Source of the DNA: Methylotenera sp.
GTDB lineage: Bacteria; Pseudomonadota; Gammaproteobacteria; Burkholderiales; Methylophilaceae
Direction: 5' to 3'
Length of the DNA stretch: 64,000 nt
Assembly (NCBI GenBank): GCA_030652995.1
Contig: JAUSAG010000046.1
Location: 1 to 64,000 of the forward strand
Shown here: positions 15,694 through 61,955 of the stretch, one piece after another
How positions within the stretch are numbered: the first letter of the stretch is position 1
Layout of the letters: every line of letters begins with the position of its first letter
Program-made: the position numbers and the translations under genes
The notes under the pieces: generated by a model
The model's database searches: none
What the model saw: the letters and a program-made list of their open reading frames with translations, nothing else
What the model was told of the DNA's origin: nothing

Positions 15694-16035
15694 ATGCCAC
15701 AAATCATTATTTTGCCACACGTAGAACTCTGCCCTGAAGGCACCGCGATTGAAGCCAACACAGGAGAATCAATCTGCGATGTGCTATTAAAAAACCATAT
15801 CGACATCGACCATGCTTGCGACCAGGCCTGCGCTTGCACCACCTGCCATGTGATTGTGCGCGAAGGTTTTAAATCACTCAACCCGTCGAGCGACCAAGAA
15901 GATGATTTACTCGATAAAGCCTGGGGCTTAGAGCCTAATTCACGGCTTTCATGCCAAGCCCTTGTTGGCAAAGAGGATCTAGTGGTAGAAATTCCTAAAT
16001 ACAGCATTAACATGGCGAAAGAGGGCCACCGCTAA
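15694..16035 (+). CDS. fdx: ISC-type 2Fe-2S ferredoxin (Fdx)
   Basis: Adrenodoxin-type ferredoxin that donates electrons in iron-sulfur cluster assembly. The 113-residue length is typical. Cluster ligands follow the pattern C42-X5-C48-X2-C51 with C87 in RLSCQA. C46 is an additional cysteine, as seen in E. coli Fdx. The iscSUA/hscBA genes it often accompanies are not in the window, so it is a stand-alone gene here, convergent with dabB. Confidence 0.93.
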   Translation: MPQIIILPHVELCPEGTAIEANTGESICDVLLKNHIDIDHACDQACACTTCHVIVREGFKSLNPSSDQEDDLLDKAWGLEPNSRLSCQALVGKEDLVVEIPKYSINMAKEGHR

Positions 16036-16062: not shown

Positions 16063-17931
16063 TCAAGAAGAGCGATATGCAATAGGATGCGTATGCTTTT
16101 TATGTGGCCCAAGATACACTCTGGCATAAATACGTAGCGCCGCGAGCTCAAGGAATATAAAGCCAACACCCGTGAGTGCAACCAATCCATATTGATGCGC
16201 GTGAATCTGGGTAAACATCAAGTCAATCGCAATAAAAGTAGGCGTAAAGGGAAACCCGACCAATGCCATGCTACAGATCAGAAAAATAATCGCCAGATCT
16301 GGTCGCTCCTGCACATAGCCATGATATTGGTTAAGGCTGATATCTTTATCTATATGATAAGTATTGTGCAGGCAGAACATCCCCATCACGGCGGCAGAAA
16401 TGGTGGTGGTCAAATAAATCCAGACATGTGCAGACTCAACGTGCACGTTCAATGACACAGCCAGCACAATCAGCAACTGGCTCATAATGATTTTCCACCA
16501 TGCGCGCATGGGGCTACCACGGCTAGCGAGTGCAGCCAAAATACACATGAGAGACAGTGTTGCATAGACCAAAGGCAAATGCTGACTGATATGAGCAGGT
16601 AGCGTAAACATGCTTAAATCCATCATGATGCCCAACACGATTAGTAGCATCAAAACTACCTGACTGGTTATTGTTTCAAGCCAGATAAAGCGCTTACCCA
16701 GCCACTTGAATGGAAGCCAGAGGCACTTTTGCTGGAACGTATCCAGATGCCATTCTTTAATACTCAGCATATACAGACTATTGCGTAAACGATTACTGAG
16801 AATTGCTGCATTCACCGGCTTGGCCTCATATTCAAAAAACTGGTTATGAATCATATACCCTAGGGTTGAAGGAGAAACAAGCAACTGATAAGCCCGTAAG
16901 CAGGCGTGTCCTGCAAAGTGAACTAATGCCAACCCATGCCAGCCCATGCCAATTTCAATCAGCATCAGACCCATCTGCGTAATAGCACCATACGCAATCT
17001 GCGTTTTAATCGTTGATTGAACTTTAGCCGTCATGGATGCAAACAAAGCTGTCACAAATCCCAACAGAATTATTGCAATATCAAAACCTGCTATTGCTTG
17101 CCATAGTGGCGATGTTCTCAACAAGAGAAACACGCCCAGATGCGCAGACAATGCGCCATAGAAAATTGCACTAGATGTGGTTGGTCCTTCCATTGCGCGC
17201 GGCAGCCAACTTGAGAAAGGAAACTGTGCAGATTTCACCGCCGCAGCGATCAACACCATCATGACGATAAACAGAAGCGGCCCAGCATATATATCAACGT
17301 TAAAAGTATTCAGCCAATCAGGCTGAGCTAACTCAGTAAAAGTAATGTTGGTATGAAAAATATGATGCGCCATCCACATCGCCAGTATCAGACACACATC
17401 TCCCAGACGGTAAAGAGACAATACTTTAAAGGCATTCTTAACAGGCAGATATCGATCGCGATAGTAGCCAATCAATAAAAATGAGGTGAAACCAAATATT
17501 TCCCAGCCGATGAATAATGTCTCGAAATTTCCTGCGAATATGGCGAAACTATACCCTACGTAGAACAAAAGCAAGCTATTAAAATAGCGCTTGAACCCAT
17601 CGTCCCGATGCATGTAATACTGGCTAAATACAATCACCAGTAGCGTAATAAACGCACCCACCAACGCAAATACAGCAGTGATTCTGTCAAAATAGAAATC
17701 CAGAATAAACCTGAATCCTTCATGCTCGAACAACAGCCAGTACTTAAGATTCTGCGACTCCATACCATGCGTGGCCCAGTCATACACCCCATAAATAATG
17801 AGGATAAAATGTAGCCCGACTGTTGTCAACGCAATCGATGTAATGGCGCGTTCTTGCGTACGGCTAAAAAATAAACTTAGAAAAAACCCTAAAAGCGGGA
17901 CAAATACATAAAGCGGCATCAATGATTGCAT
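16063..17931 (-). CDS. dabB: DabB: NuoL/MrpA-like membrane subunit of the DAB inorganic-carbon pump
   Basis: Membrane protein of the proton-conducting transporter family (NuoL/M/N). The 622-residue protein has about 14-16 hydrophobic segments and the core WLPRAMEGPTTSSAIFYGA, which matches the lysine/histidine proton-path region of the family. It lies 12 bp downstream of dabA, and no other complex I genes are near, so it is the DAB subunit rather than part of a NADH dehydrogenase. In DAB systems this subunit is proposed to use the cation gradient to drive one-way CO2-to-bicarbonate conversion by DabA. The activity here is inferred from family and context. Confidence 0.88.
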   Translation of the reverse strand: MQSLMPLYVFVPLLGFFLSLFFSRTQERAITSIALTTVGLHFILIIYGVYDWATHGMESQNLKYWLLFEHEGFRFILDFYFDRITAVFALVGAFITLLVIVFSQYYMHRDDGFKRYFNSLLLFYVGYSFAIFAGNFETLFIGWEIFGFTSFLLIGYYRDRYLPVKNAFKVLSLYRLGDVCLILAMWMAHHIFHTNITFTELAQPDWLNTFNVDIYAGPLLFIVMMVLIAAAVKSAQFPFSSWLPRAMEGPTTSSAIFYGALSAHLGVFLLLRTSPLWQAIAGFDIAIILLGFVTALFASMTAKVQSTIKTQIAYGAITQMGLMLIEIGMGWHGLALVHFAGHACLRAYQLLVSPSTLGYMIHNQFFEYEAKPVNAAILSNRLRNSLYMLSIKEWHLDTFQQKCLWLPFKWLGKRFIWLETITSQVVLMLLIVLGIMMDLSMFTLPAHISQHLPLVYATLSLMCILAALASRGSPMRAWWKIIMSQLLIVLAVSLNVHVESAHVWIYLTTTISAAVMGMFCLHNTYHIDKDISLNQYHGYVQERPDLAIIFLICSMALVGFPFTPTFIAIDLMFTQIHAHQYGLVALTGVGFIFLELAALRIYARVYLGPHKKHTHPIAYRSS

Positions 17932-17943
17932 ATTAAACCTTCA

Positions 17944-20481
17944 TTATTGATTCAAATAAACTGGCAGGTTTTCCTGCGTAGCTTCTGGAAGATGATTGGT
18001 ACGCATTGATTTTGCCTGCTCCAATAACAAATTGATGTCGGTAAAGTCCGGCAATGACTTTGTCAACGTTTGGTACGCTACAAACGCACCTTGCCTGAAG
18101 TAATAAATGTCATGTGATTCAGGATGAATCACCGACAGATGAACCCATTCATTAATAAACCACTCGTACATTTCCGGGGTAGACTGTATCGCCTGCAACA
18201 CAACCTGTGGAAAATGCTCCACGACAATCAATAGACGTAATGGATCATGCACCTCCACCATTTGCCATGGCAAGCCTGGCCTAAGGTCGCCATCACTACT
18301 GTTAGCAACACCAAACAGCCCAACCACGTTATGTGGTAGCTTAGTACCCGCCCCTAATTTATAGTTATCCACCCGAGAGAAATAGTACTCAAGATTGATA
18401 CCTCCACATACTGGTCCTAATGGTTTCATGATGTTAGCCAGCAACTTACCCTCAAGATCAGTGCTGTAATCATAAGAGTTCATAAATGCACGACGATCAA
18501 GAAATAGATCTTTGGTCAACGCGCGCCGACCGACAATACATAATGTATTAGTCCCGTGCCCCAACTCTGGCCGGGGCTCAAATAATGATACAGAACGCGC
18601 TTTGATCGCCTGCCTGATTTTACCGATTTGCGCTTTCGTATTAATAGAGGCAAAGCGGCGAGAGCGCTCTTTCGCATTCAAATCACATGCACGCTCAAAT
18701 GTAATGATATTTGCTTCATGACGTTGCGCGTTTTCAGCATTTAAAAAATGCACGTCATAAAACTCGATTTCATCAGCAGCGGTATCATGCATCCCTCCCA
18801 CAAATTGTGTTGATTCAGTAATATGAATGCCCACGTTCTGTAGCACTTTACGTACATCCGGATGATTCGCCATTGTCGCCACCACTCTGGCATTCACTGC
18901 ACCTGGTCGACCACTGCACGCGCCGCAATCATGTGCACCATGATGCGGGTTATTGGCGCTGCTGCTACCATGCGCAATCAGATAAACAATGGGCGCAAAA
19001 TCTTTGGTGAGCGCAATGCCACTTAATAAACTAAGCACCCGGGCCGCCATCTCATCCACTGTGAATCCGATTTGCAAGTCATTTTCACGATCATCTGGAT
19101 GCGCATTGACAACCGTCAGTTGCCCTTCACTTTGCATCACAGAAAATGCATTGGAAATAGCAGGCGCCATTTTCGGTCTGAATAGATTTTGCACCAATCT
19201 CAAGGCCGCCCAGAACCCGAAAGTAAAAGTACATAAAAACCCTGTAATCGCCTGATGGGTTTTAGGCGTATAAAAAACATCATGCGCACGTGAGGCTGTC
19301 ACATTGAATTCTTTAATCAAGTACTTGGGCGTCACTGGTGCTGGACAAAGTTTTTCATAAAATTTGCCGTTTTGTGGCAGAAAAAAGAACTCCGCACTAA
19401 AAAAACCTGGTGTACCGAACGTTTCGGCATACTGGTCAGCATGTTCGACATGCCGGCGAATACTGCACTCCCGCTCATCTATACAAAACAATGCCTGAAA
19501 ACTTTTATTTGTTTCAAGCGCAGACTGGGTCTTAAGTTTGCCACTGCATATTTGAATCCCTGCCAGCACATGGTCGTAATAACTCCACTCAAACGCATCC
19601 TGCCATATTTTTAGCACTTCGTTTAGTTCAGAATAAGGTAAGTCAGCAAAGAAATCTGTCGGTGGCGTTGAAACATCATGTGCGATAGGCTGCCACTGCA
19701 CCAACAAGCCATCCAGATAGTCAATCTCCAGCAGAAGCTCTACTAAAATAAAATCTTTCAGTGAAATTTCTTTTCTATCCAACATCACGTTCGGGCTGGT
19801 TTCTACCGTTGCAACCATTCCACTCCAGCCACGATGACCGAACTGCTGATCAAACAGATATTGCTCATAATAAGCTTCGTTGCCTACAACCATATTTAAT
19901 AACTTGGCGATTGATAAGTCTTGACTTAAAAGTAGCTCTTTTGCACGCTTGGTTTTAAACAAACTGACATAACTATGTTGCTCTAAGTGTCTTACTGCCT
20001 GCAACAAGCCAGCATTTGCCTGAGGAAACTGCCACATGGCAACACCTTGGTCCAGATAGTGCCCCAATAACCTGAACAATAAAGGCTGAACTGCATTGTC
20101 CATATCAATCTGATATTGGCTTTTCCAAAGCGCTCTAAGCCTTCCTACTCTTGATTCCACATGTTCGTTATAACTTTGGACCAGGGCCTTTTCGCGCCAT
20201 AGCGCCACATTCCCCTCACCCTGACGCTGCGCAATCACACGATTGAGTACCTGGTCATCAATACGGCCATTGGCATACATTTGCCTGAAGTCATTCAGTG
20301 GCGTAGTGGCCTGAAAACCAAACATCTTGGAAGCTTTAAAAATGGCCTCATAAAACTTTAGATTCTGAAAAGCATGTAAAGAGTTGTGATGAATAAAATC
20401 CTTCAGCGGTGACTGTGAAGGAAGATAGTGCCTCAATAAGTGCAACGCATGTTGTTCATCAAAGGTATGGGTATGCATCAT
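17944..20481 (-). CDS. dabA: DabA: DUF2309 zinc beta-carbonic-anhydrase-like subunit of the DAB pump
   Basis: Large cytoplasmic subunit (845 residues) of the DAB energy-coupled inorganic-carbon accumulation system. The four residues described as zinc or active-site ligands in Halothiobacillus DabA (C351, D353, H524, C539) align with C333 and D335 (in LFCIDERE), H504 (in LIAHGSSS) and C519 (in AHDCGACSG). The internal spacings 2 and 15 are identical, so the protein looks active. It starts with two ATG codons (20481 or 20478). It lies just after an intrinsic terminator that separates it from the carbonic anhydrase gene. Confidence 0.92.
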   Translation of the reverse strand: MMHTHTFDEQHALHLLRHYLPSQSPLKDFIHHNSLHAFQNLKFYEAIFKASKMFGFQATTPLNDFRQMYANGRIDDQVLNRVIAQRQGEGNVALWREKALVQSYNEHVESRVGRLRALWKSQYQIDMDNAVQPLLFRLLGHYLDQGVAMWQFPQANAGLLQAVRHLEQHSYVSLFKTKRAKELLLSQDLSIAKLLNMVVGNEAYYEQYLFDQQFGHRGWSGMVATVETSPNVMLDRKEISLKDFILVELLLEIDYLDGLLVQWQPIAHDVSTPPTDFFADLPYSELNEVLKIWQDAFEWSYYDHVLAGIQICSGKLKTQSALETNKSFQALFCIDERECSIRRHVEHADQYAETFGTPGFFSAEFFFLPQNGKFYEKLCPAPVTPKYLIKEFNVTASRAHDVFYTPKTHQAITGFLCTFTFGFWAALRLVQNLFRPKMAPAISNAFSVMQSEGQLTVVNAHPDDRENDLQIGFTVDEMAARVLSLLSGIALTKDFAPIVYLIAHGSSSANNPHHGAHDCGACSGRPGAVNARVVATMANHPDVRKVLQNVGIHITESTQFVGGMHDTAADEIEFYDVHFLNAENAQRHEANIITFERACDLNAKERSRRFASINTKAQIGKIRQAIKARSVSLFEPRPELGHGTNTLCIVGRRALTKDLFLDRRAFMNSYDYSTDLEGKLLANIMKPLGPVCGGINLEYYFSRVDNYKLGAGTKLPHNVVGLFGVANSSDGDLRPGLPWQMVEVHDPLRLLIVVEHFPQVVLQAIQSTPEMYEWFINEWVHLSVIHPESHDIYYFRQGAFVAYQTLTKSLPDFTDINLLLEQAKSMRTNHLPEATQENLPVYLNQ

Positions 20482-20497
20482 TTCTATTCACTCATAA

Positions 20498-20524
20498 AAA
20501 ATAAGCCGCCCTTCTAGGGCGGCT
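20498..20524 (-). terminator. intrinsic terminator/attenuator between carbonic anhydrase gene and dabA
   Basis: On the minus strand AGCCGCCCT and its exact complement form a 9-bp GC-rich stem (20504-20512 with 20516-20524) with a 3-nt loop, followed by a T-rich run (TATTTTTTATG). It ends 16 bp before the dabA start and so should partly or fully separate SulP-CA expression from dabAB. No space remains for a separate full promoter between it and dabA. Confidence 0.8.
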
Positions 20525-20539
20525 ATAAAAAACACTCAC

Positions 20540-21184
20540 CTAGCCGATATAAGTATCTTCAAGGAAATTTACCTTGCCAGTTGCCAAATCATAAATCCCA
20601 CCGACAATGGCGATCTGCTTTTCTTTAAGCATTTCATCCACGATATCACTTTGACGAATAATGGTATCAATCTGATGTCGCACATTAAGCTCATTAATTT
20701 TCTCAACAAAGTCTGCATTTTTTGAAGATCGATCCGCTTTGTTCACTACGGTTGTCTCATGACGGATAGAAGGCTTAATGAAATTAATGATTTCGCCTAT
20801 ATGGCCATCTCTAAAATCATCACATGCCGCCTTTACCGCGCCGCAACCGGTGTGACCCATCACAACAATAAGCTTAGCCCCTAAGTATTTGGTACTAAAT
20901 TCAAGACTGCCAATAGCTTTATCTGATGCAATATTTCCGGCAAGCCGCACGCTAAAAATATCACCGAGAGCTTGGTCAAAAAGCAATTCAGTCGGTGCAC
21001 GTGAATCGCTGCAGCTCAAAATAGAAGCAAATGGGTGCTGTTTATCCTTAGTGATCTGAACCAGACTTTGAAAGTCTTTATCACTTTGATAATTGTTCAG
21101 AAAACGTTGATTACCCTCAACCAGAATATCAAGCGCTTCCTTAGGGGTCATTTTATCTCTATCGATCAATGGGTGTTTATACAT
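20540..21184 (-). CDS. beta-class carbonic anhydrase
   Basis: Zinc enzyme interconverting CO2 and bicarbonate. The 214-residue protein has the beta-class ligands C58, H111 and C114 with the catalytic dyad D60/R62 (SCSDSRAPTELLFDQ and GHTGCGAVKAA). It lies 18 bp downstream of the SulP transporter gene and upstream of dabA, and has no signal peptide, so it is cytoplasmic. Together they look like a bicarbonate import and interconversion module. Confidence 0.94.
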   Translation of the reverse strand: MYKHPLIDRDKMTPKEALDILVEGNQRFLNNYQSDKDFQSLVQITKDKQHPFASILSCSDSRAPTELLFDQALGDIFSVRLAGNIASDKAIGSLEFSTKYLGAKLIVVMGHTGCGAVKAACDDFRDGHIGEIINFIKPSIRHETTVVNKADRSSKNADFVEKINELNVRHQIDTIIRQSDIVDEMLKEKQIAIVGGIYDLATGKVNFLEDTYIG

Positions 21185-21202
21185 GGTATTTCTTCCTTAA
21201 TA

Positions 21203-22759
21203 TTAATGTGTAAGTAAAGATTTAGGTGGTTCGAAATTAATTGTTTCCACCGTAATGTTTTTTAATTTGGCATGTAGCGGATAATCGTGAATGTACTCCT
21301 GCACATCGTACGAAATCGACTTGCTATTCGTGCAATCAATAATGACTTTTGAATTGGGCGGGATAGCTTCAAGTGCCGCAATAATACTAGCCTTGTTGAA
21401 AAAGGACACTTCTTCAGCCAATGCAAGGCGATGAAGCATTAAACCGCCATCAGTCGTGACTGTACGCTTCAAATGATATGAATTACGATAACTGTGATGC
21501 AAGGTGAAGAACAATGCAACTACTAAACCAATCGCAATACCTGTCAATAGATCCGTCAATATAATCGCCACAACCGTCGCGAAAAATGGTCCAAACTGCT
21601 CCCAGCCCAAGCCATAGATTTGTTTGAACAACGCAGGTTTTGCAAGCTTGTAGCCAACAACAATCAGAATCGTTGCCAAACTTGCTAGCGGAATCATGTT
21701 CAGCAAATTAGCAATCGTCAACGCGCACAACAGCAGAAAAACCCCATGCAAAATAGCAGATAATTTGGTTTTAGCACCAAATGATATATTGGCTGAACTA
21801 CGCACAATCACCTGCGTAATGGGCAAGCCACCTATCAGGCCAGAAATCATGTTGCCCACCCCTTGCGCCTTAAGCTCCTGGTTGGTAGGCGTAACACGTT
21901 TCAACGGGTCTATCTTATCTGTTGCCTCGACACACAACAACGTCTCCAAACTCGCAACAATAGCCATCACAACAGCGACTTTATATATTTCAATATTTGT
22001 CCACTGACTAAAATCCGGGTATGTAAATAAGTTTGTAAAGCCTGCAATACCTTCAGCTACAGGCAACTGTACAAGCTGATCTTCTGCGAGACTAAAATTA
22101 AGTACACCACTGGTAAATAGATAATTAATGGCAATACCAAGAAATACGACAACGATTGGACCTTGAAGTATCTGGAACAATCGATGCTTCTTTGTCAGAT
22201 AAAGATCCCATAGAATCAGAATAGCCAAAGAAATTGCAGCGATTAATACTGCGCCAGGTGTCAAGAAGTCCCATGCGGCCACAATAGAAGTAAACGTGTT
22301 TCCACCGTCCGCTTGCGCAAAAGACTCACTGCCCTCATAGTCAGAGATATATCCCAATGCATATGGAATTTGCTTAAGTATGATTAACAGGCCAATACCT
22401 GTTAGCATACCTTTGATTACAGAAGAAGGCACAAAATATGCAATAAAGCCTGCTTTAAAAAAGCCTAACAGATATTGCAATACCCCCGCCAAAACCACCG
22501 CAAACAAAAAAGCCTCAAATGAACCTAAAGTTGCAATTGCAGTAAGTACAATAACGGCAAGACCGGCAGCAGGTCCGCTCACGCCCAACTGAGAACCGCT
22601 CATCATCCCAACGACAATCCCGCCTACAACGCCTGCAATCACCCCCGAAAAGAGTGGCGCCCCGGAGGCCAAGGCAATGCCAAGGCACAACGGCAATGCA
22701 ACAAAAAATACGACAATACTGGCCGGTAAGTCACTTTTAAACTCTTTGAATATATTCAT
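21203..22759 (-). CDS. SulP family anion (probable bicarbonate) transporter
   Basis: Inner-membrane transporter of the SulP/SLC26 family. The 518-residue protein has about 12-14 hydrophobic segments and a STAS-like C-terminal domain (about 440-518, with KVIIDCTNSKSISYDV). The family includes sulfate and Na+/bicarbonate (BicA) transporters. Linkage to carbonic anhydrase and dabAB argues for bicarbonate, but substrate cannot be read from sequence alone. Start ATG at 22759 has AAGGAG 12 bp upstream, rather distant. It is the first gene of the minus-strand carbon cluster. Confidence 0.88.
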   Translation of the reverse strand: MNIFKEFKSDLPASIVVFFVALPLCLGIALASGAPLFSGVIAGVVGGIVVGMMSGSQLGVSGPAAGLAVIVLTAIATLGSFEAFLFAVVLAGVLQYLLGFFKAGFIAYFVPSSVIKGMLTGIGLLIILKQIPYALGYISDYEGSESFAQADGGNTFTSIVAAWDFLTPGAVLIAAISLAILILWDLYLTKKHRLFQILQGPIVVVFLGIAINYLFTSGVLNFSLAEDQLVQLPVAEGIAGFTNLFTYPDFSQWTNIEIYKVAVVMAIVASLETLLCVEATDKIDPLKRVTPTNQELKAQGVGNMISGLIGGLPITQVIVRSSANISFGAKTKLSAILHGVFLLLCALTIANLLNMIPLASLATILIVVGYKLAKPALFKQIYGLGWEQFGPFFATVVAIILTDLLTGIAIGLVVALFFTLHHSYRNSYHLKRTVTTDGGLMLHRLALAEEVSFFNKASIIAALEAIPPNSKVIIDCTNSKSISYDVQEYIHDYPLHAKLKNITVETINFEPPKSLLTH

Positions 22760-22915: not shown

Positions 22916-23185
22916 TTAGTCAGTGTTCTTCTCCGCATATGGTCGTTTACCTAACATATTCAAACGCATTTGCTTGTGTTTTCCATCAACTTCAGCATTT
23001 TCATTAATCAATGTTGCGCCTTCAAAGTTTTCTTTCTTGTTAGCTGACTCAGCAGGCACTTGCTGATAGGGACGCTTAGAAAGATTTTGTTTATTGATGT
23101 GTTTGTAATCTTCGTCTGCAAACACAGAGCCAGCGGCTAATAAAGTTGCTGCAGAAAGTAAAGTCACTAAATATTTGCTTTTCAT
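22916..23185 (-). CDS. small secreted protein with two KRPY motifs (copy 1)
   Basis: Unknown function, about 89 residues from the ATG at 23185 (GGAG seven bases upstream; the frame is open 18 bases further but without an RBS). A signal peptide MKSKYLVTLLSAATLLAAGS with cleavage after VFA leaves a mature protein of about 65 residues. It holds two copies of a N-L/M-x-S/G-K-R-P-Y motif (NLSKRPYQQV and NMLGKRPYAE) separated by a variable, charged linker with EGATLI. It is the last and most divergent of three tandem paralogues. I do not recognise a named domain. Confidence 0.75.
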   Translation of the reverse strand: MKSKYLVTLLSAATLLAAGSVFADEDYKHINKQNLSKRPYQQVPAESANKKENFEGATLINENAEVDGKHKQMRLNMLGKRPYAEKNTD

Positions 23186-23247
23186 GATAAATCTCCAATT
23201 CATTTTTAATTGATGTCTAATACTGCTTTTAAGTAAGGTACGGCTTC

Positions 23248-23511
23248 TTAGTAAGGACGTTTGCTTAACATATTCAGGCGCAATGCTTTACGATCATTTA
23301 ACACGACATCTTCCGATGTTTGATCAGCGATCAATGTTGCGCCTTCCCATTGCTGATCTTTTTTCTGAGCGCTATTTTCAACGACTTGTTGAAACGGGCG
23401 CTTAGATAAATTCTGTTGATTGATATGTTTGTAATCTACTTCTGCATATACAGAACCAGCGGCTAATAAAGTTGCTGCAGAAAGTAAGGTAACTAAATAT
23501 TTGCTTTTCAT
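23248..23511 (-). CDS. small secreted protein with KRPF/KRPY motifs (copy 2)
   Basis: Unknown function, 87 residues from ATG at 23511. The RBS region and first 20 codons are almost identical to copy 1, indicating tandem duplication. After the signal peptide (cleavage near SVYA) it has NLSKRPFQQV near the N-terminus of the mature chain, a QWEGATLIADQ core, and ends exactly at NMLSKRPY. Its C-terminal half is nearly identical in DNA to that of copy 3, suggesting gene conversion. It is preceded by copy 3 and followed by copy 1 on the minus strand. Confidence 0.75.
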   Translation of the reverse strand: MKSKYLVTLLSAATLLAAGSVYAEVDYKHINQQNLSKRPFQQVVENSAQKKDQQWEGATLIADQTSEDVVLNDRKALRLNMLSKRPY

Positions 23512-23555
23512 GATAACTCTCCAATTCATTTTCAGTGATGTCTCAATACTGCTTT

Positions 23556-23825
23556 TTAGTAAGGACGTTTGCTTAACATATTCAAGCGCAATGTTTTATG
23601 ATCATTTAACGCGACATCTTCCGATGCTTGATCAGCGATCAATGTTGCGCCTTCCCATTGCTGATCTTTTTTCTGAGCCTTATTTTCAACCACTTGTTGA
23701 AACGATCTTTTAGAAATAAAATTCTGGTTGTGTGCATTGTTTTTCAAACTAACATCAGCATGTGCGGCACCACTCATCAATAACACTGCTGAAGAAACAA
23801 CTGCTACTAAATTTAACACTTTCAT
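23556..23825 (-). CDS. small secreted protein with KRSF/KRPY motifs (copy 3)
   Basis: Unknown function, 89 residues, first gene of the tandem set. Its signal peptide (MKVLNLVAVVSSAVLLMSGA, cleavage near AHA) differs from the other two, while the mature part shares ISKRSFQQVVENKAQKKD, QWEGATLIADQ and a terminal NMLSKRPY. The mosaic of unlike leader and near-identical tail points to recombination between copies. An RBS (AAGGAG) precedes the ATG. It is divergent from the LuxR-type regulator with 133 bp between the probable starts. Confidence 0.75.
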   Translation of the reverse strand: MKVLNLVAVVSSAVLLMSGAAHADVSLKNNAHNQNFISKRSFQQVVENKAQKKDQQWEGATLIADQASEDVALNDHKTLRLNMLSKRPY

Positions 23826-23924
23826 TCTGTTCTCCTTTTGAGATTACTTAACCTTCGTTTCAGGTTTTTTATTGCTTTGTTGATGGAATGCATTATGAAC
23901 GGCCTTAGTCAACTAAAAATCTAC

Positions 23925-23950
23925 CAGTATAGGTATAACGGTGTATACTG
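23925..23950. promoter_or_regulatory. inverted repeat at the luxR-like gene start
   Basis: CAGTATA (23925-23931) and TATACTG (23944-23950) form a perfect 7-bp inverted repeat with a 12-bp spacer containing a -10-like TATAAC (23934-23939). This is a candidate operator for the adjacent LuxR-type regulator or for the divergent small-protein operon. Its overlap with the upstream GTG codon argues that translation begins at the later ATG (23959). Confidence 0.4.
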
Positions 23951-23958
23951 ATCAGCAT

Positions 23959-24720
23959 ATGCCGAATGACCTACAAGACAATCAAAGCCAACCTACTAGT
24001 GCTCGTGCGCTTCGTCAAAGCTTGAAAGAGTCACAAGCAAACGACACGCATCTACGCCTTTACCTTAACTTTGGTCAGCAATTATTTAGCCACGGCTGGA
24101 ACATGGGCGCAGCGAACACCCTGCTAAACTCATTGTGCAACCTAGTGTCTGCTCAGCATGCCTTATTGGCTATTGAAAACTCCGGGAAACTGATCATCTT
24201 CACCCAAATTGGACAAACACTCCCTGTTGGCGCGAGAATCCCCATGATGGGGATATTAGCGATGATGCTAAAAAACCCAGTGCAATTCTCTGTGTATGAG
24301 AATAAAAATACCCAGCTATGGACGCATGGTGACGCTAGTCATCATGAATGTTTGATTCCTATTGCCTTAGCACAGCATGGCAAAGGTATACTTGCGCTAT
24401 CTGGTAAAAAACTCATGTTAAGCCAACCGGAGCGCGAAGCCTTGCATGCGGTTTCAGGGCTAATTGCGCTGGCTATTTCGCAACATCAAGGTCCGGCGCG
24501 CACAGAAGCAGACTTGTCAATTTTAGAAACATTAACGCCAAGAGAACGAGAAATACTCGCACTGCTCCCTGCTGGCTTAAGTAATAATGAATTAGGTGTC
24601 AAGCTAGGTATTGCATCGGGAACGGCTAAAATACATGTGGAACGCGTTTTAAATAAACTTGGTGTTAAAGATAGAACACAGGCTGCGGTTAAAGCAGTTG
24701 AGCTAGGCTATAAATCTTAA
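23959..24720 (+). CDS. LuxR-family transcriptional regulator with GAF-like N-terminal region
   Basis: DNA-binding regulator of about 253 residues. The C-terminal LuxR helix-turn-helix runs through LTPREREILALLPAGLSNNE and KIHVERVLNKLGVKDRTQAA. The N-terminal 170 residues look GAF-like (sensor fold) and lack an obvious autoinducer-binding signature or a phosphoacceptor aspartate. The frame is open to a GTG at 23941, but an inverted repeat and -10-like hexamer overlap that codon. It is followed after 46 bp by a hybrid histidine kinase in the same direction and is divergent from the KRPY small proteins, which are its most likely targets (inference). Confidence 0.85.
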   Translation: MPNDLQDNQSQPTSARALRQSLKESQANDTHLRLYLNFGQQLFSHGWNMGAANTLLNSLCNLVSAQHALLAIENSGKLIIFTQIGQTLPVGARIPMMGILAMMLKNPVQFSVYENKNTQLWTHGDASHHECLIPIALAQHGKGILALSGKKLMLSQPEREALHAVSGLIALAISQHQGPARTEADLSILETLTPREREILALLPAGLSNNELGVKLGIASGTAKIHVERVLNKLGVKDRTQAAVKAVELGYKS

Positions 24721-24766
24721 ATTAGCAATTAATCTTAACGCTAATAAATTAACGCCAAGAAAAATT

Positions 24767-26746
24767 GTGATGAAGACTAAACAGTTACCCCCAAATAAAC
24801 CAGAAAAAACTCATCTGCTGCACCTGATAGCGCAGGCCTGGCAAAATTTACCTCTGGGGTTTAAAGGCGTGTTTGTGATAACACTGCCGCTCGCTGTGTT
24901 GCTCGCTTCACTAGGTTCACTCTACATACGTGAGTTAGAGTCCACAAAGCTTGAGAACCAACTAAAGCAGGCGCTACAAAATCAGCGTGACATTCAAACA
25001 GTGCATACCCAACTGCTTGAGGCGTCAACAGGTGTAAGAGACTACCTACTCACAGGAGATAAACACTTTTTGAACATTTTTTTTGAAGCTGAAAAAATGT
25101 TGCCTAAAATTCTTGCCACGCTGGAAGATCGCTTAGAAACTGATCATCAAAAACAGCGATTGTCGGTAATTTCTCCACTTGTAGCCAAGAATCTGGAAGA
25201 TCTGCAAGCACTTTCAACCAATGAAGCAGAAATAGCTTCTGATAGATTGATCGCACAATTCAAGTCACAGGTTGAAACGCTAGATAGACTTAGAAGTGAA
25301 ATTGAAGCACTCAATGCAGAAGAGGCATTACTTGTTGAGCAAGACCAGCAGGAAATTTTCATACAACGTCAGCAAAACCTTGTCGTAACCCTGATTGCCA
25401 CCGTCGCAGGCATCATCGGCTCACTCATGGCAGTATGGATATTTTCACGCACAATTGTAAAGCGCGTACGCCTGCTACGTGACAGCGCAGGACATTTAGC
25501 ACGTGCAGAAGCGCTTGATTTACCCTCAAGTAGCCGAGATGAACTGGGGCAATTGTCAGATGAACTGGATCATGCATCACAACTACTTGCCAAAAACATT
25601 AGCGATGCCTTGCAGGCAAGACAGGAAGCCGAGGAAGCAAGCGCATCAAAAAGCATGTTTTTATCTCGCACCAGTCATGAGCTAAGAACACCGCTAAACG
25701 CGATTTTAGGTTTTGCCCAGTTGTTAGAACAAGATTTACCCGCCGGAAAACAATTAAATAGTGTGCTACTGATTAAGGGCGCAGGCCTGCATTTACTCAA
25801 GTTAATCAATGAGGTGCTTGAAATTGCAAGAATAGAATCAGGCGAAACCTCACTGGAGCTGGCACCAACCTTGATCAATGACCTTCTGGAAGAAGCCACG
25901 CACTACATCGCGCCCTTAGGAAAAATACGGGACATTGAAATCAAATGTGACGCCACGCCTGATCTGTGGGCAATGGCAAACAGGCAAAAGTTATTACAAG
26001 TGATATTAAACTTGCTATCCAATGCCCTTAAATACGGGCCGGTTAGCTCAGTTGTTCAATTAAATGCTTATCGTCGAGATGACATTATTGTGATTGAAGT
26101 GCAAGATTCTGGGGCGGGCATTCCAATTACGCTAAGAGAAAGATTATTTACACCGTTCGATAGGCTGGGTGCAGAAAATACCAAAGTTGAGGGCACTGGC
26201 CTTGGCTTGGCATTGTCGAAACAAATCATGTTGGCAATGCACGGAAGTATCGATCTTTCTGAAGAAAAAAGTTTATTCTGGATAGAAATTGCAGCGTGCG
26301 AGCCTAATATTAGGCCCTTAGCGTTAACGCCAGAAGTCAAAAAATCAAAATATGTGAATCTTTCAGACAAGCATTCGATTCTCTACGTAGAAGATAACAT
26401 GAGCAATCGCGCATTGGTTGAAGCGATTATTTTACGTCAGCGAGATTTACGCATTCATTGTGTCTCTACAATTAAAGATGCCAAACAGTATTTAGCTGAA
26501 GTAGTGCCCTCCTTATTGTTGATTGATTTGAATCTGCCCGACGGCTCGGGTGAGAGCCTAGTACATTATGTAAATGCTGATCCTCGATTAAAGAACACGC
26601 CTATGATGATTTTAAGTGCTGACGCACTGCCGGACACAATCAGCCGCTTACAAGCGGCAGGGATAACGCATTACATGACTAAGCCATTGGATGTTGCTAT
26701 TTTTAATAAACAAATCAGAGAGCTCATTCACTATGAGCAAGAATAA
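24767..26746 (+). CDS. hybrid sensor histidine kinase (CHASE3-HAMP-HisKA-HATPase-REC)
   Basis: Inner-membrane sensor kinase, 659 residues. A membrane segment (about 34-54), a periplasmic CHASE3-like helical domain (about 60-200) and a second membrane segment (about 205-227) are followed by HAMP (about 228-280). HisKA carries the phosphoacceptor H304 in SRTSHELRTPLN. The ATPase domain has NLLSNALKYG, DSGAGIP and GTGLGLAL boxes. A C-terminal receiver domain (about 536-655) has phosphoacceptor D587 in LLLIDLNLPDG and Lys in MTKPLD. Start is GTG at 24767 or the next ATG. It lies between the LuxR regulator and a REC-only protein, so a phosphorelay is likely. The signal is unknown. Confidence 0.9.
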   Translation: MMKTKQLPPNKPEKTHLLHLIAQAWQNLPLGFKGVFVITLPLAVLLASLGSLYIRELESTKLENQLKQALQNQRDIQTVHTQLLEASTGVRDYLLTGDKHFLNIFFEAEKMLPKILATLEDRLETDHQKQRLSVISPLVAKNLEDLQALSTNEAEIASDRLIAQFKSQVETLDRLRSEIEALNAEEALLVEQDQQEIFIQRQQNLVVTLIATVAGIIGSLMAVWIFSRTIVKRVRLLRDSAGHLARAEALDLPSSSRDELGQLSDELDHASQLLAKNISDALQARQEAEEASASKSMFLSRTSHELRTPLNAILGFAQLLEQDLPAGKQLNSVLLIKGAGLHLLKLINEVLEIARIESGETSLELAPTLINDLLEEATHYIAPLGKIRDIEIKCDATPDLWAMANRQKLLQVILNLLSNALKYGPVSSVVQLNAYRRDDIIVIEVQDSGAGIPITLRERLFTPFDRLGAENTKVEGTGLGLALSKQIMLAMHGSIDLSEEKSLFWIEIAACEPNIRPLALTPEVKKSKYVNLSDKHSILYVEDNMSNRALVEAIILRQRDLRIHCVSTIKDAKQYLAEVVPSLLLIDLNLPDGSGESLVHYVNADPRLKNTPMMILSADALPDTISRLQAAGITHYMTKPLDVAIFNKQIRELIHYEQE

Positions 26747-26760
26747 GTTAAGGACATAAA

Positions 26761-27243
26761 ATGAACGAGGCGGAAATTTTAAATGCCAAAATACTCATTG
26801 TGGATGACGCAGAAGCCAATTTAAAACTATTAGAAGATTTGTTAGCAAGAGAAGGCTTTAATCAGATTATTAGCACGGCAGACTCTACCCGCGCACTTGA
26901 TTTATTTAAAGCCTTTGAGCCTGATCTGATATTGCTTGATTTAATGATGCCGGAACTGGATGGATATGCTGTGCTTGAAATGTTATCACGGCATATTCCA
27001 AAAGATGAGTATTTGCCAGTATTAATCCTCACTGCAGATGCCACCATCGGAGCGAAAAGAAAAGCTTTGGCCCTGGGTGCCAAAGACTTTTTAACCAAAC
27101 CGTTTGATACGATTGAAGCAATGCTACGTGTATGGAACTTGCTTGAAACTCGCGTTTTGTATCGCCACCTGAAGTCACTCAACGCTGCAATGAAACCCCC
27201 AGTACATGTGCCCCAAACATCTGAAAAAGGCGCTACTGAATAA
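26761..27243 (+). CDS. single-domain response regulator (REC with C-terminal tail)
   Basis: Cytoplasmic receiver protein of 160 residues. The acidic pair D15/D16 (LIVDDAEAN), phosphoacceptor D60 (ILLDLMMPELDG), Thr in LILTADAT and Lys in FLTKPF are all present. A short C-terminal extension (about 130-160) has no recognisable output domain. It may signal by protein-protein contact, or be the remnant of an HD-GYP/RpfG-like regulator that lost its output domain. It follows the hybrid kinase by 14 bp and converges on the protease gene with a 5-bp gap. Confidence 0.85.
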   Translation: MNEAEILNAKILIVDDAEANLKLLEDLLAREGFNQIISTADSTRALDLFKAFEPDLILLDLMMPELDGYAVLEMLSRHIPKDEYLPVLILTADATIGAKRKALALGAKDFLTKPFDTIEAMLRVWNLLETRVLYRHLKSLNAAMKPPVHVPQTSEKGATE

Positions 27244-57585: not shown

Positions 57586-60500
57586 TTAGCTGAGTAGTTT
57601 ATGCAAGTTTTGTAATGACTCTACCGTAATCTCTTGCATATGCGCCATACCGACACATGCGGCTTTTGCACCTGCAATCGTGGTGTAATAAGTCACTTTG
57701 TTTTGTAGTGCACTACGGCGAATTTCATAAGAGTCAGCTACGGCACGTTTATCCTCAGTGACATTTACAATAAAGCTGATGTCGCCGTTTTTAATCATAT
57801 CCACAATGTGTGGACGACCTTCAGCCACTTTATTCACGGCTTGCACTTTTAAACCGCGTTCTGTTAACGCTGCGGCTGTGCCTTTAGTCGCCACCAATTC
57901 AAACCCTAACTGATGTAATTGCTGTGCGATTTCCACCACTTTTGGATAGTCTTCTTTTCGTACGCTAATAAAGGCTCTACCACCCTCTGGTAGTTTGGCT
58001 GAAGCACCAAGTTGGGACTTCAAAAAAGCTTCCGCAAATGTACTGCCTACACCCATCACTTCACCCGTTGATTTCATTTCCGGGCCTAGAATCGTATCTA
58101 CACCAGGAAACTTGATGAATGGAAACACCGCTTCTTTTACTGAGTAGAATGGCGGAATAATCTCGCGCGTCACATTTTGTGATGCCAGCGATTGCCCTAC
58201 CATGCAACGTGCCGCCACTTTAGCCAATTGCAAACCACAGGCTTTAGAAACAAACGGCACAGTACGTGAAGCGCGTGGGTTTACCTCTAATACAAATACG
58301 GTTTCACCTTGAATCGCAAACTGTACGTTCATTAGCCCCACCACACCCAAAGCCCTTGCCATCTGCTTGGTTTGATCACGCAATTCATCCTGCAACTTAG
58401 CTGACAAACTATAAGGCGGCAGTGAGCATGCTGAGTCACCTGAATGCACTCCGGCCTGTTCAACGTGCTCCATAATGCCGCCAATAATCACATCACCCGT
58501 GTTATCGCATAACGCGTCGACATCAACCTCAAGTGCATCATTTAAGAATCTATCCAGTAACACCGGCGACTCATTTGAAACTTTTACTGCTTCACGCATG
58601 TAACGTTCAAGCTGGCTTTGTTCTTGCACAATTTCCATCGCACGACCGCCCAGCACATAACTTGGACGTACTACTAACGGGTAACCAATTTCCAGCGCCA
58701 ATCGAATGGCATCTTCCGGCGTTCTGGCCGTGCGGTTTGGCGGTTGTTTTAAACCTAACTCCTGCAACATTTTTTGAAAACGTTCACGGTCTTCGGCTTT
58801 ATCAATCGCATCCGGGGTTGTACCAATAATTGGCACGCCGGCTTTTTCTAAATCACGCGCTAATTTAAGCGGCGTTTGTCCACCGTATTGTACGATCACG
58901 CCGATTGGTTTTTCCAGCGCTACAATTTCCAGCACGTCTTCCAGTGTCACTGGCTCAAAATACAAACGGTCTGACGTGTCATAATCGGTAGAAACGGTTT
59001 CAGGGTTACAGTTCACCATAATGGTTTCATAGCCATCTTCGCGCATAGCAAACGCAGCATGTACACAACAATAATCGAACTCAATGCCCTGCCCGATACG
59101 ATTTGGTCCACCGCCCAGCACCATAATTTTCTTTTTGTCGGTTGGCTGCGCTTCGCATTCTTCTTCATAGGTTGAATACATATACGCCGTATTGGTTGCA
59201 AACTCAGCCGCACAGGTATCCACGCGCTTATACACAGGACGCACCTGCAACGCTTGCCTGTAGGCACGCACCGCATGCTGATCAGTATTGAGCAGTGTCG
59301 CTAAACGGCGGTCTGAAAAACCGCTACGTTTGAGTTTAAGTAAAGCCTGCTTATCTAAATCAGCAATCTGCTTACCTTTAAGCGCCTGCTCCCGATCAAT
59401 AAGGTCTTTAATTTGCACTAGGAACCAAGTGTCGATCTTTGAAATATCGAACACTTCAGCAACAGTCATGCCCATTCTAAAAGCATCACCCACGTACCAA
59501 ATACGCTCAGGTCCCGTCACACCAATCTCTTTGGTAATCGTGTCTAGGTCTGTGGTTTTTTCATCCAAACCATCTACGCCAACTTCAAGTCCGCGCAGTG
59601 CTTTTTGGAATGACTCCTGGAACGTACGGCCAATGGCCATCACCTCACCGACAGACTTCATCTGTGTGGTTAAGCGTGAATCTGCCTGCGGAAATTTTTC
59701 AAAAGCAAATCTTGGTATTTTGGTAACCACGTAATCGATACTTGGCTCAAACGACACGGGGGTTGCACCACCGGTGATCTCATTACGTAACTCATCTAAA
59801 GTAAAGCCCACAGCCAATTTAGCCGCCACTTTAGCAATCGGGAAGCCGGTAGCCTTTGAGGCAAGCGCAGATGAACGCGACACGCGCGGATTCATCTCAA
59901 TCACAATCATACGACCATCGTCTGGATTAATGGCAAACTGTACGTTTGAACCACCAGTATCCACGCCGATTTCACGCAATACCGCCAATGAGGCGTTACG
60001 CATGATTTGATATTCTTTATCCGTCAGCGTTTGTGCAGGCGCCACCGTAATCGAGTCGCCAGTATGCACCCCCATCGGGTCCAGGTTCTCTATTGAGCAA
60101 ACAATGATGCAGTTATCAGCTGAGTCACGCACCACCTCCATCTCATACTCTTTCCAACCGAGCAAAGATTCTTCAATCAACAACTCACTGGTAGGTGAGG
60201 CATCTAAGCCACGCTCGCAAATCGTAATGAACTCCTCACGGTTGTAGGCAATACCACCGCCGCTGCCGCCCATGGTAAATGACGGGCGAATAATCGCTGG
60301 GTAGCCTATGCTCACCTGTGCTTGCAACGCCTCTTCCATGCTATGGGCAATCATTGAACGCGCAGAACCCAAACCGATTTTCGTCATCGCTTCTTTAAAC
60401 TTCTGACGATCTTCAGCTTTATCAATCGCCTCTTTAGAAGCGCCAATGAGCTCAACATTATATTTTGCCAGCACGCCGTGCTTATCTAAATCCAGCGCAC

Positions 60501-60792
60501 AATTCAAAGCAGTTTGTCCACCCATAGTAGGCAATAAGGCATCCGGGCGCTCTTTTTCGATAATCTTTTCAACCACTTGCCAAGTGACGGGTTCGATGTA
60601 CGTCGCATCCGCCATCTCAGGGTCAGTCATGATAGTAGCAGGGTTAGAGTTCACCAAAATCACACGATAACCTTCTTCACGTAGCGATTTACACGCCTGC
60701 GCACCAGAATAGTCAAACTCGCAAGCTTGACCGATTACAATCGGACCTGCGCCAATGATTAAAATAGATTTAATGTCGGTACGCTTAGCCAT
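57586..60792 (-). CDS. carB: carbamoyl-phosphate synthase large subunit CarB
   Basis: Makes carbamoyl phosphate for arginine and pyrimidines. The 1068-residue protein has two homologous ATP-grasp halves, each starting with a [21 protein letters not shown]-type segment (first: [20 protein letters not shown]), an oligomerisation domain between them, and a C-terminal allosteric MGS-like domain ([15 protein letters not shown]). Its start overlaps the carA stop by 1 bp (TAATG). Confidence 0.97.
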
Positions 60793-61955
60793 TAGCCAAC
60801 CTTTCTTTCTTCTGTCTTATGTGCTTGCATCATGCTAATGAAGCGATCAAACAAATAACTCATTTCAGTGGGCCCCGGGCTCGCTTCAGGGTGCCCCTGG
60901 AAGCTAAACGCGGGTTTATCGGTACGTGCAATGCCTTGCAAACTGCCATCGAACAAAGAAACGTGTGTCACTTTGACATTAGCTGGCAAAGTTGCGGCAT
61001 CTGCAGCAAAGCCATGGTTTTGACTTGTAATATAAACACGATTGGTTTCAAGGTCTTGCACTGGGTGATTTGCGCCGTGATGGCCGAATTTCATTTTGAG
61101 TGTTCTTGCACCACTTGCCAGTGCTAACAACTGATGCCCTAAACAAATACCAAAAGTTGGAATACCCTGATCAACGATAGCTTTAATGGCTGTAATTGCA
61201 TAACCGCAAGGCTGCGGATCGCCAGGGCCGTTAGATAAAAATACGCCATCAGGCTTATATGCTAATGCTTCTTCGGCCGTTGTCTGCGCTGGCAATACCG
61301 TCACCTTACAACCACGTGAAACCAACATACGCAAAATATTACGTTTAACACCATAATCAAACGCAACCACATGAAACTGCTCCGTAGGGGCTTTCGCAAA
61401 GCCTAGACCTAGCGCCCACTCACCTTCAGTGAATTGATAGGGCTTATCACACGTCACCACTTTAGCTAGATCCATGCCATTCAAGCCAGGGAAGTCAGCT
61501 ATCGCAGAGGCGGCTAACGACAACACTTTGGCTTCATCAGCCTCGCCAGCTACGATTACACCTGTTTGCGCACCTTTTTCGCGCAAGATACGCGTCAATT
61601 TACGTGTATCAATATCGGCAATCGCCACCACCTTGTTAGCCACAAGGTATTGTGACAAAGACTGTGTGTTTCTGAAATTGCTGTGCGTTAAAGGCAAATC
61701 ACGAATAATCAAACCGCTTGCATACACCTGACCGGACTCTACATCCTCATCATTCACACCGTAATTACCAATATGCGGATAAGTGAGCGTTACAATTTGC
61801 TTGGTGTAAGATGGATCAGTGAGTATCTCCTGATAACCTGTCATGGAAGTATTAAACACAACCTCGGCTACTGCATGTCCAGCAGCGCCAATTGATGTGC
61901 CACGAAACACGGTTCCATCTGCTAATACAAGCATGGCGGGCAGATTTTGTGACAC
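60792..61955 (-). CDS. carA: carbamoyl-phosphate synthase small subunit CarA
   Basis: Glutaminase subunit that delivers ammonia to CarB. The 387-residue protein starts at GTG behind AAGGAG. The catalytic cysteine is in [14 protein letters not shown] and the His/Glu dyad in [11 protein letters not shown]. It is coupled to carB by a 1-bp overlap. Confidence 0.96.

Follow-up and report, generated by a model that had tools for sequence, protein, structure and literature searches.

Bacteroidota-related dabAB genes of a class other than DAB2 beside a native SulP-carbonic anhydrase locus in a Methylophilaceae bacterium without a RubisCO match

In this study, we relate the DAB system of a methylotroph to the characterised DAB2 pump and to the locus in which it is found. 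Within the window, the whole 64,000-nucleotide stretch analysed, sequence comparison places the dabAB pair in a class other than that of DAB2, and the four-gene block to which it belongs is by its gene trees a mosaic, with SulP and carbonic anhydrase (CA) genes native to Methylophilaceae and dabAB related to those of Bacteroidota. The reading that we favour, with moderate confidence, is that dabAB would encode a membrane CA pump of this second class, coupled through DabB and supplying bicarbonate at low CO2 in a RuMP methylotroph that lacks RubisCO. The order SulP, beta-CA, dabA and dabB on the minus strand was as given in the original prediction, whose coordinates were all correct:

15694..16035, plus strand: fdx, ISC-type 2Fe-2S ferredoxin (TIGR02007, 188.9 bits); convergent, right-hand border of the insertion
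16063..17931, minus strand: dabB, 622 aa, antiporter-like subunit of NuoL length (PF00361/PF00662, Proton_antipo_M/N)
17944..20481, minus strand: dabA, 845 aa, Bacteroidota-type (Pfam PF10070, 707.6 bits)
20504..20524, minus strand: terminator-like hairpin between CA and dabA (9 pairs, 7 of them G-C, T-rich tail)
20540..21184, minus strand: beta-carbonic anhydrase, 214 aa (Pfam PF00484, Pro_CA, 139.1 bits)
21203..22759, minus strand: SulP-family anion transporter, 518 aa, native Methylophilaceae type (Pfam PF00916, 195.8 bits)
22916..23825, minus strand: tandem array of three small paralogues (95, 93 and 89 aa); native locus, copies in relatives
23941..24720, plus strand: LuxR-type regulator (GerE, PF00196); native locus
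24767..27243, plus strand: CHASE3 hybrid histidine kinase and receiver protein (Pfam); native locus, conserved beside LuxR

Class residues of the DAB pair

The window encodes a PF10070 DabA with a complete zinc site, C333/D335/R337/H504/C519 (Cys2His ligands and Asp-Arg dyad), and an adjoining PF00361 antiporter-like DabB. Alignment of C333, D335, H504 and C519 with C351, D353, H524 and C539 of Halothiobacillus DabA2 confirms that these four active-site residues are kept, while their spacing, said to be the same, is close rather than exact (gaps of 2, 169 and 15 here, 2, 171 and 15 in Halothiobacillus). Elsewhere the two systems part. We use H-class as a name coined here and L-class for the characterised DAB2 class, with sites numbered as in DAB2. 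None of the L-class residues (Leu658; Glu444; DabB H260, K347 and non-Glu 151) is found in the window: by sequence alignment, DabA has His642 at the Leu658 site and Phe419 at the finger-tip Glu444 site, and DabB has Glu144, Tyr258 and Arg346 at the Ile151, His260 and Lys347 sites, with an ion-pair quartet of E144/R175/D178/K233.

These differences recur among homologues. Our residue survey retained 97 of 133 first-hit DabA frames (780-930 aa, repeats removed) and 103 of 122 DabB frames (440-680 aa), a length filter that excluded most long DabAs of the order. All 69 Bacteroidota-type DabA rows have His at 658, and E151, Y260 and R347 occur together in 66/66 Bacteroidota-type DabB rows; the finger segment is without any acid in 59 of the 69 DabA rows and has one somewhere in the remaining 10. 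When residues were paired by locus (79 loci with both rows), 68 were H/E/Y/R, 10 were L/not-E/H/K and one was Y/E/C/R. In row L160, position 658 is Tyr and the dyad Arg is replaced by Gln. Eight long DAB systems of the same order all carry His658 and the same DabB residues, three of them with Asp at the 444 site. The L-class set (L658, E444, H260, K347, non-Glu 151) was seen in seven systems carried on plasmids of haloarchaea, alpha- and gammaproteobacteria and in two Methylophilaceae systems, and a Staphylococcus pettenkoferi homologue also has L-class residues. A tree of 40 DabA cores, from which the alignment columns near 444 and 658 were removed, separates the classes with 100/100 support. 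Behind the class signature stands a single phylogenetic split and not a series of independent changes. The equation of this system with the Halothiobacillus pump is unsupported by residues, locus pairing and tree alike. H-class systems are common among Bacteroidota and occur also in Nitrotoga and in the methylotroph of the window; to our knowledge, no member of the class has been assayed.

Beta-CAs have Gln or His at the position equivalent to DabA2 Leu658, a residue reported to be strictly conserved in 150 DabA2 homologues. As far as the accessible text of the 2026 DAB2 structure paper goes (PMC13144422), latent activity is tied to Leu658, and coupling is put down to Glu444 together with a complex-I ion pair that is broken in DAB2; H260A, K347A and E444A/Q impair or abolish activity, I151E halves growth yield, and L658 can be changed without loss in vivo, L658Q supporting growth with no in vitro activity. 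By the last result, the presence of His642 does not have to mean free CA activity. A DAB of the ordinary kind, working as DAB2 does with interchangeable class residues, would accord with this dispensability of L658, with the kept family and zinc site, and with the retained equivalents of DAB2 S256, K310, H339, H343, R182, D185 and K235; we nevertheless consider it unlikely, since H-class rows differ from DAB2 at the very sites where E444A/Q, H260A, K347A and I151E do harm (PMC13144422, accessible text). Because H260, K347 and E444 are altered here, pumping may have been lost, but conservation across the H-class argues against decay. Complete complex-I-style pairs (E144-R175, D178-K233), together with the missing finger-tip acid, instead suggest coupling through DabB and not through a residue at Glu444.

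The AlphaFold2 model of DabB has a mean pLDDT of 86.3, and complex I NuoL/ND5 chains fill the 50 structural matches listed for it; the absence of 9rd0 among those 50 has no bearing on the fold. Over rows spanning model residues 1-450, NuoL H254 and K342 correspond to Tyr and Arg in the window DabB, and NuoL K399/D400, considered as a DabB stand-in for Glu444, are unmatched in the alignment.

Mosaic origin of the gene block

The four genes do not share one history. In its tree, the window SulP is sister to that of Methylophilaceae bacterium S06.Bin152 (support 98) within an all-Methylophilaceae set of 18 rows (98); 20 rows carry that label, the two outside being a second SulP (L208_1) and one from another family of the order (L222). 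The CA likewise falls among Methylophilaceae CAs (13-row set, 95; 25-row branch, 88), and the labelled rows outside the 25, out of 32, are six of another CA type and L227. DabA (99, 96) and DabB (98) are nested inside Bacteroidota. Transfer of the whole block from Bacteroidota is ruled out for SulP and CA by their own trees.

The dabAB pair sits between the terminator-like hairpin of the native locus and fdx, which borders CA in relatives' loci. A comparable hairpin lies between CA and fdx in 9/9 SulP-CA loci inspected by eye, two of which were folded, and the hairpin at 20524-20504 occupies the position of that 3' of CA in native loci. The original prediction had missed this hairpin, the separate origins of SulP/CA and dabAB, and the change of further DAB2 residues known from experiment to be important. 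We found no compositional signs of recent transfer, GC and codon use of dabAB matching their neighbours, and no direct repeats above chance at the insertion borders.

With its T-rich tail, the hairpin leaves a single transcript for the block unassured, and dabAB may be poorly expressed because of it; the two genes could be read at a lower level by transcription through the hairpin, or have their own promoter. Carried further, this would make dabAB a barely transcribed, cryptic passenger behind an active SulP-CA pair, as in relatives that lack dabAB: among 18 relatives' loci found via LuxR, 15 have CA and SulP and none shows dabAB at this place (L211 ends at a contig edge). We hold this to be improbable, as both frames are open with class residues intact, their composition resembles that of the neighbours, and the SulP-CA-dabAB block is also kept in S06.Bin152, which is of another genus group. 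LuxR matches at E up to 1e-15 occur in 41 of 150 Methylophilaceae genomes; a strict link of the LuxR-kinase-receiver block to DAB was rejected on the same 0/18 count.

Read by eye, the beta-CA contains the motifs CxDxR and HxxC and lacks an obvious signal peptide, and the products of the small paralogous genes start with a signal-like N-terminus; for the latter, searches of Pfam and NCBIfam at E 0.001 gave no match. SulP scores 125 of the 880 bits needed for the BicA model (NCBIfam NF050096) and so falls short of that assignment, although other SulP proteins may still carry bicarbonate.

Host carbon metabolism and proposed function

The host genome, a Methylophilaceae assembly of 99.96% completeness, suggests by its genes a life on one-carbon compounds. 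A profile search of the whole genome, window included, returned no RubisCO large subunit, which answers the RubisCO part of the check proposed in the original prediction and leaves out the RubisCO of a CO2-concentrating mechanism; PEPC likewise had no match. Two hexulose-6-phosphate-synthase matches above cut-off point to RuMP-cycle genes, a biotin carboxylase gene is followed by a carboxyltransferase/biotin subunit in a pyruvate-carboxylase-type pair, and the only Pro_CA match is the beta-CA of the block. This gene content fits the earlier suggestion of a non-autotroph in which bicarbonate would serve anaplerosis and biosynthesis. The implied oddity of a DAB without RubisCO did not hold: it is ordinary in Methylophilaceae, where 16 of 20 DabA-bearing genomes in the 150 sampled have no RubisCO match, and a DAB-RubisCO link was rejected (Fisher p = 1.0).

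In the pump that we favour, membrane energy would drive the DabA-DabB complex to convert CO2 to bicarbonate in the cytoplasm, with protons coupled via DabB residues instead of Glu444, the site altered relative to DAB2. His642 may have the stabilising role in hydration that Gln or His plays in ordinary beta-CAs. SulP would import bicarbonate and the soluble CA equilibrate the pool, from which pyruvate carboxylase, acetyl-CoA carboxylase and carbamoyl-phosphate synthase could draw at low CO2. A soluble CA next to a pump can waste energy. Co-expressed with a soluble CA, DAB2 still improved E. coli growth (PMC9894237, accessible text), and in staphylococci CA together with MpsAB brought no benefit (PMC8552792, accessible text). 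A bolder version, which we think improbable, is that the H-class is a mechanistically distinct energy-coupled CA with a complex-I-type gate, a canonical transition-state His and no finger-tip acid, perhaps tightly coupled and reversible; if so, it might run backwards in CO2-producing heterotrophs and conserve energy from bicarbonate dehydration. Least probable is a sodium-bicarbonate symporter with SulP and CA as accessories, on the sodium use proposed for MpsAB (as reported in the accessible text of PMC13144422), given that the Staphylococcus homologue belongs to the other class and that the carbonic-anhydrase zinc ligands are complete here.

As the H-class differs at each of the sites to which the DAB2 paper ties latent activity and coupling, it offers natural swap experiments for the coupling model, and at the present locus an H-class DAB has been added to the native SulP-CA operon of a RubisCO-free bacterium.

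Comparison with known systems

DAB2 of Halothiobacillus neapolitanus (PDB 9rd0) has in common with the window the PF10070 family, the C/D/R/H/C zinc site and an antiporter-like DabB; it rescues CA-deficient E. coli, and in its model CO2 hydration is driven by membrane potential (PMC13144422, accessible text). Identity over aligned columns is 24% for DabA and 21% for DabB, and dabA precedes dabB in the window whereas dabB comes first in the L-class pairs retrieved. The window order is that of clade C of COG3002/YbcC (COGNAT, PMC5700660), with ybcC (dabA) upstream of a NuoL homologue and, as frequent neighbours, a SulP-type permease (COG0659), as here, or NuoM (COG1008). By this gene order and these neighbours, clade C is very probably the H-class. 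A DAB clade with a SulP neighbour was probably already known in 2017, and the accessible text gives neither function nor class residues for it; clades A (LysR) and B (PII) appear to match L-class loci. The residue contrast with DAB2 was not met with elsewhere: titles and abstract openings, with most subscription papers out of reach, mentioned neither these class residues nor a Methylophilaceae DAB.

The nearest DabAs, from Bacteroidota loci such as that of Flavobacterium laiguense, are 66-68% identical and agree at the class residues. In 16 of the 47 Bacteroidota loci long enough to judge, dabA is preceded by both SulP and CA genes, yet by the trees the window's SulP and CA do not derive from these. 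In S06.Bin152, the same four genes likewise lie at the fdx-LuxR locus and in this order (identities of 75% for DabA, 78% for DabB, 85% for CA and 82% for SulP), with LuxR and histidine kinase only 45% identical; its genome has RubisCO, unlike that of the window host. MpsAB of Staphylococcus belongs to the same two families, rescues an E. coli CA mutant (PMC6689103, accessible text) and supplies bicarbonate to a non-autotroph, and its probable place in the other class is read from the S. pettenkoferi homologue.

The four genes and their host

The four genes of the module proved real, and all lie on the minus strand with the Pfam families that the original prediction had named:

22759-21203, minus strand, SulP transporter, expected family
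21184-20540, minus strand, beta-carbonic anhydrase (CA), expected family
20481-17944, minus strand, dabA, expected family at 707.6 bits
17931-16063, minus strand, dabB, expected family

The four named active-site residues of DabA align with C351, D353, H524 and C539 of DabA2. Their spacing, claimed to be the same, agrees for the outer gaps and is two residues off in the middle one (2-169-15 in the window, 2-171-15 in DabA2). Judged by its family and zinc site, the window DAB would be a CO2-hydrating pump. A structure model of DabB (mean pLDDT 86.3) resembles E. coli NuoL across about 400 residues.

Consistent with the prediction, the host lacks RubisCO genome-wide, with no large-subunit match in the whole genome (2.66 Mb, 48 contigs, 99.96% complete), which is not surprising in this family. 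Of 150 Methylophilaceae genomes sampled, DabA is matched in 20 (interrupted in one), RubisCO in 28 and both in 4, showing no association (Fisher p = 1.0, the genomes not being independent); to carry DAB but no RubisCO is thus commonplace in this family. The host has one DabA and one Pro_CA, the latter being the CA of this locus, and two hexulose-6-phosphate synthase matches above cut-off. No PEPC match was found in its genome; its one PYC_OADA protein is taken as pyruvate carboxylase, since it immediately follows the end of a biotin-carboxylase subunit. From reading of the ORFs, candidate carAB genes for carbamoyl-phosphate synthase, a bicarbonate consumer, lie at 57586-61955. A soluble CA next to such a pump had been predicted to be wasteful of energy, and in the species studied it is rare for MpsAB and CA to occur together (PMC8552792). 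In one E. coli strain, however, growth still benefited from having both DAB2 and CA, which is attributed to the need for bicarbonate (PMC9894237), and a review places such genes in autotrophs and heterotrophs alike (PMC10880623).

Residues that separate two DAB classes

For DAB2, the structural account describes Leu658 of DabA as strictly conserved in 150 homologues, replacing the Gln/His of beta-CAs, membrane-finger Glu444 as essential, and Ile151 of DabB as breaking a complex-I ion pair (PMC13144422). In DAB2 numbering, we found His at 658 in all 69 Bacteroidota-type DabA rows of our alignment (all from the fetched loci L002-L077), and Glu151, Tyr260 and Arg347 in 66/66 DabB rows of this type, which include two loci from other families of the host's order (L222, L223). 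Site 444 varied among the 69 (Leu 27, Gln 19, Phe 13, Ile 4, Met 2, Tyr 2, Asn 2), and the finger segment had no acid in 59 and one acid in 10. We refer to the window type as H-class (His658) and to the DAB2 type as L-class (Leu658).

The 28 other DabA rows carried Leu (18), His (9) or Tyr (1) at 658; of the nine His rows, two (L143, L144) represent the L222 and L223 genes, and the remaining seven derive from long open frames within the host's order. The 37 other DabB rows were mixed (Glu151 in 15, Tyr260 in 14, Arg347 in 15). When rows were paired by locus (n = 79), sites 658/151/260/347 read His/Glu/Tyr/Arg in 68, Leu/not-Glu/His/Lys in 10, and Tyr/Glu/Cys/Arg in a single locus, L160, whose dyad Arg is moreover replaced by Gln. 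Leu658, Glu444, His260 and Lys347 without Glu151 were found in seven plasmid-borne and two Methylophilaceae systems, and likewise in one Staphylococcus pettenkoferi system. When 40 DabA cores, with the columns around 444 and 658 removed, were placed in a carefully built tree, the two classes separated at 100/100. The split is thus one event on the tree, and the shared residues mark a class rather than repeated convergence. These residues suggest that coupling may be altered in H-class DAB.

All eight long systems chosen have His658 and the H-class DabB residues, with Ala (4), Asp (3) or Ser (1) at 444. In three loci, the gene for a long H-class DabA (about 1090 aa) is accompanied by that for DabB and by genes for three additional antiporter subunits of PF00361:

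L240, 4255-13682
L242, 983-10413
L245, 3564-13000

By gene content, such clusters would form a multi-antiporter CO2-hydrating complex; NuoM neighbours of ybcC are already mentioned in the text of a 2017 paper (PMC5700660).

Insertion site and mosaic origin of the block

A LuxR match was found in 41 family genomes, 18 of whose loci were fetched first and two later. CA and SulP, with the native regulator block, adjoin LuxR in 15 of the 18, the small genes being matched in fewer than all 15; in L214 and L216 both SulP and CA are absent from view. None of the 18 showed dabAB beside LuxR, L211 ending at a contig border, and contig ends cut the two later loci, L228 and L229 (which has SulP). In the window, this block (22916-27243) comprises small exported paralogues, a LuxR regulator, a CHASE3 hybrid kinase and a receiver protein, and is a candidate inorganic-carbon-responsive regulon. 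Between the small genes and SulP, a hairpin of 12 pairs followed by a T-rich tail (22881-22855) is probably a terminator of the former or a SulP attenuator.

By eye, a hairpin lies between CA and the ferredoxin gene (fdx) in 9/9 SulP-CA loci with the junction in view. In the window and in Methylophilaceae bacterium S06.Bin152 (G101), a hairpin separates CA from dabA, which places dabAB in the interval from the old terminator to fdx. In the host's closest relatives by RsmA (G084 and G169 at 95%, G117 at 91%), fdx is adjoined by CA only (67-68% identity), with no SulP, DAB or LuxR block.

Scanning genome contigs with the window DabA gave 76 loci, the best being that of G101 (L002, 75%); most others are Bacteroidota (43-68%), along with Nitrotoga (52-53%), two records titled as Saccharibacteria, two as "uncultured bacterium" and one as Planctomycetota. 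The remaining uninterrupted Methylophilaceae DabAs sampled, that of G101 excluded, share 26-31% identity with it in tblastn. The following trees are quick trees without bootstrap. In the DabA tree (75 rows), the window is paired with L002 (100) inside an otherwise Bacteroidota set plus one unnamed row (99, then 96); in the DabB tree, the two belong to a set of 30 rows, 27 of them from Bacteroidota (98). The SulP tree gathers 18 Methylophilaceae rows into a single set (98) with the window next to G101 (98), and the window CA shares a branch (88) with 24 further CAs from Methylophilaceae, containing a 13-row set at 95. Unlike dabAB, SulP and CA thus stay with the family, and the block is of mosaic origin. 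The composition of dabAB is in line with that of its neighbours. The nearest outsider to the SulP set is one Bacteroidota SulP (100), from a SulP-CA-dabAB cluster (L028); this position points to gene exchange in one direction or the other.

The window SulP is closer to G101, of another genus group (82%), than to eight genus mates (76-79%), whereas its LuxR shares 84-86% with five genus mates, 76% and 45-48% with three others, and 45% with G101. Because of these opposite affinities, the SulP-CA-dabAB block may have moved as a unit between genera; CA is undecisive (85% to G101, 77-85% to genus mates, open fork). Within G101's genus group, an L-class dabB-dabA pair occupies the far side of CA, SulP's place in other genomes, in G059, G106 and G116, with a LysR gene between CA and dabB in G059:

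L106, 6563-12335, L-class dabB-dabA at the fdx-CA locus
L224, 8805-14565, the same
L225, 403-6186, the same

In G137, of the host's genus, dabA matches with stops lie in two overlapping pieces alongside a dabB match (L104, 1-6117); this dabA looks decayed or misassembled.

Gene order and known clades

Of 75 other DabA loci, 28 were too short to judge gene order. Among the remaining 47, SulP and CA both lie upstream of dabA in 16, SulP without CA in 10, SulP only downstream of dabB in 14, and neither in 7. Of the 16, 11 have an upstream CA of a near type and 5 one of a distant type (<40%); since both types occupy this slot, it would appear to have been filled more than once. In the nitrite oxidiser Nitrotoga, an autotroph, H-class dabA-dabB is followed by SulP (L050, L053, L073, L077).

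The 2017 paper describes a clade with ybcC (dabA) ahead of a NuoL homologue, often adjoined by SulP or NuoM genes, and reverse-order clades with LysR or PII genes (PMC5700660). Our L- and H-classes very probably correspond to its YbcC clades; the clade itself is already in print. What makes the module interesting is the block's mosaic origin and, above all, how the residues of H- and L-class differ, a contrast that bears on two explanations offered for DAB2 and is simple to test.
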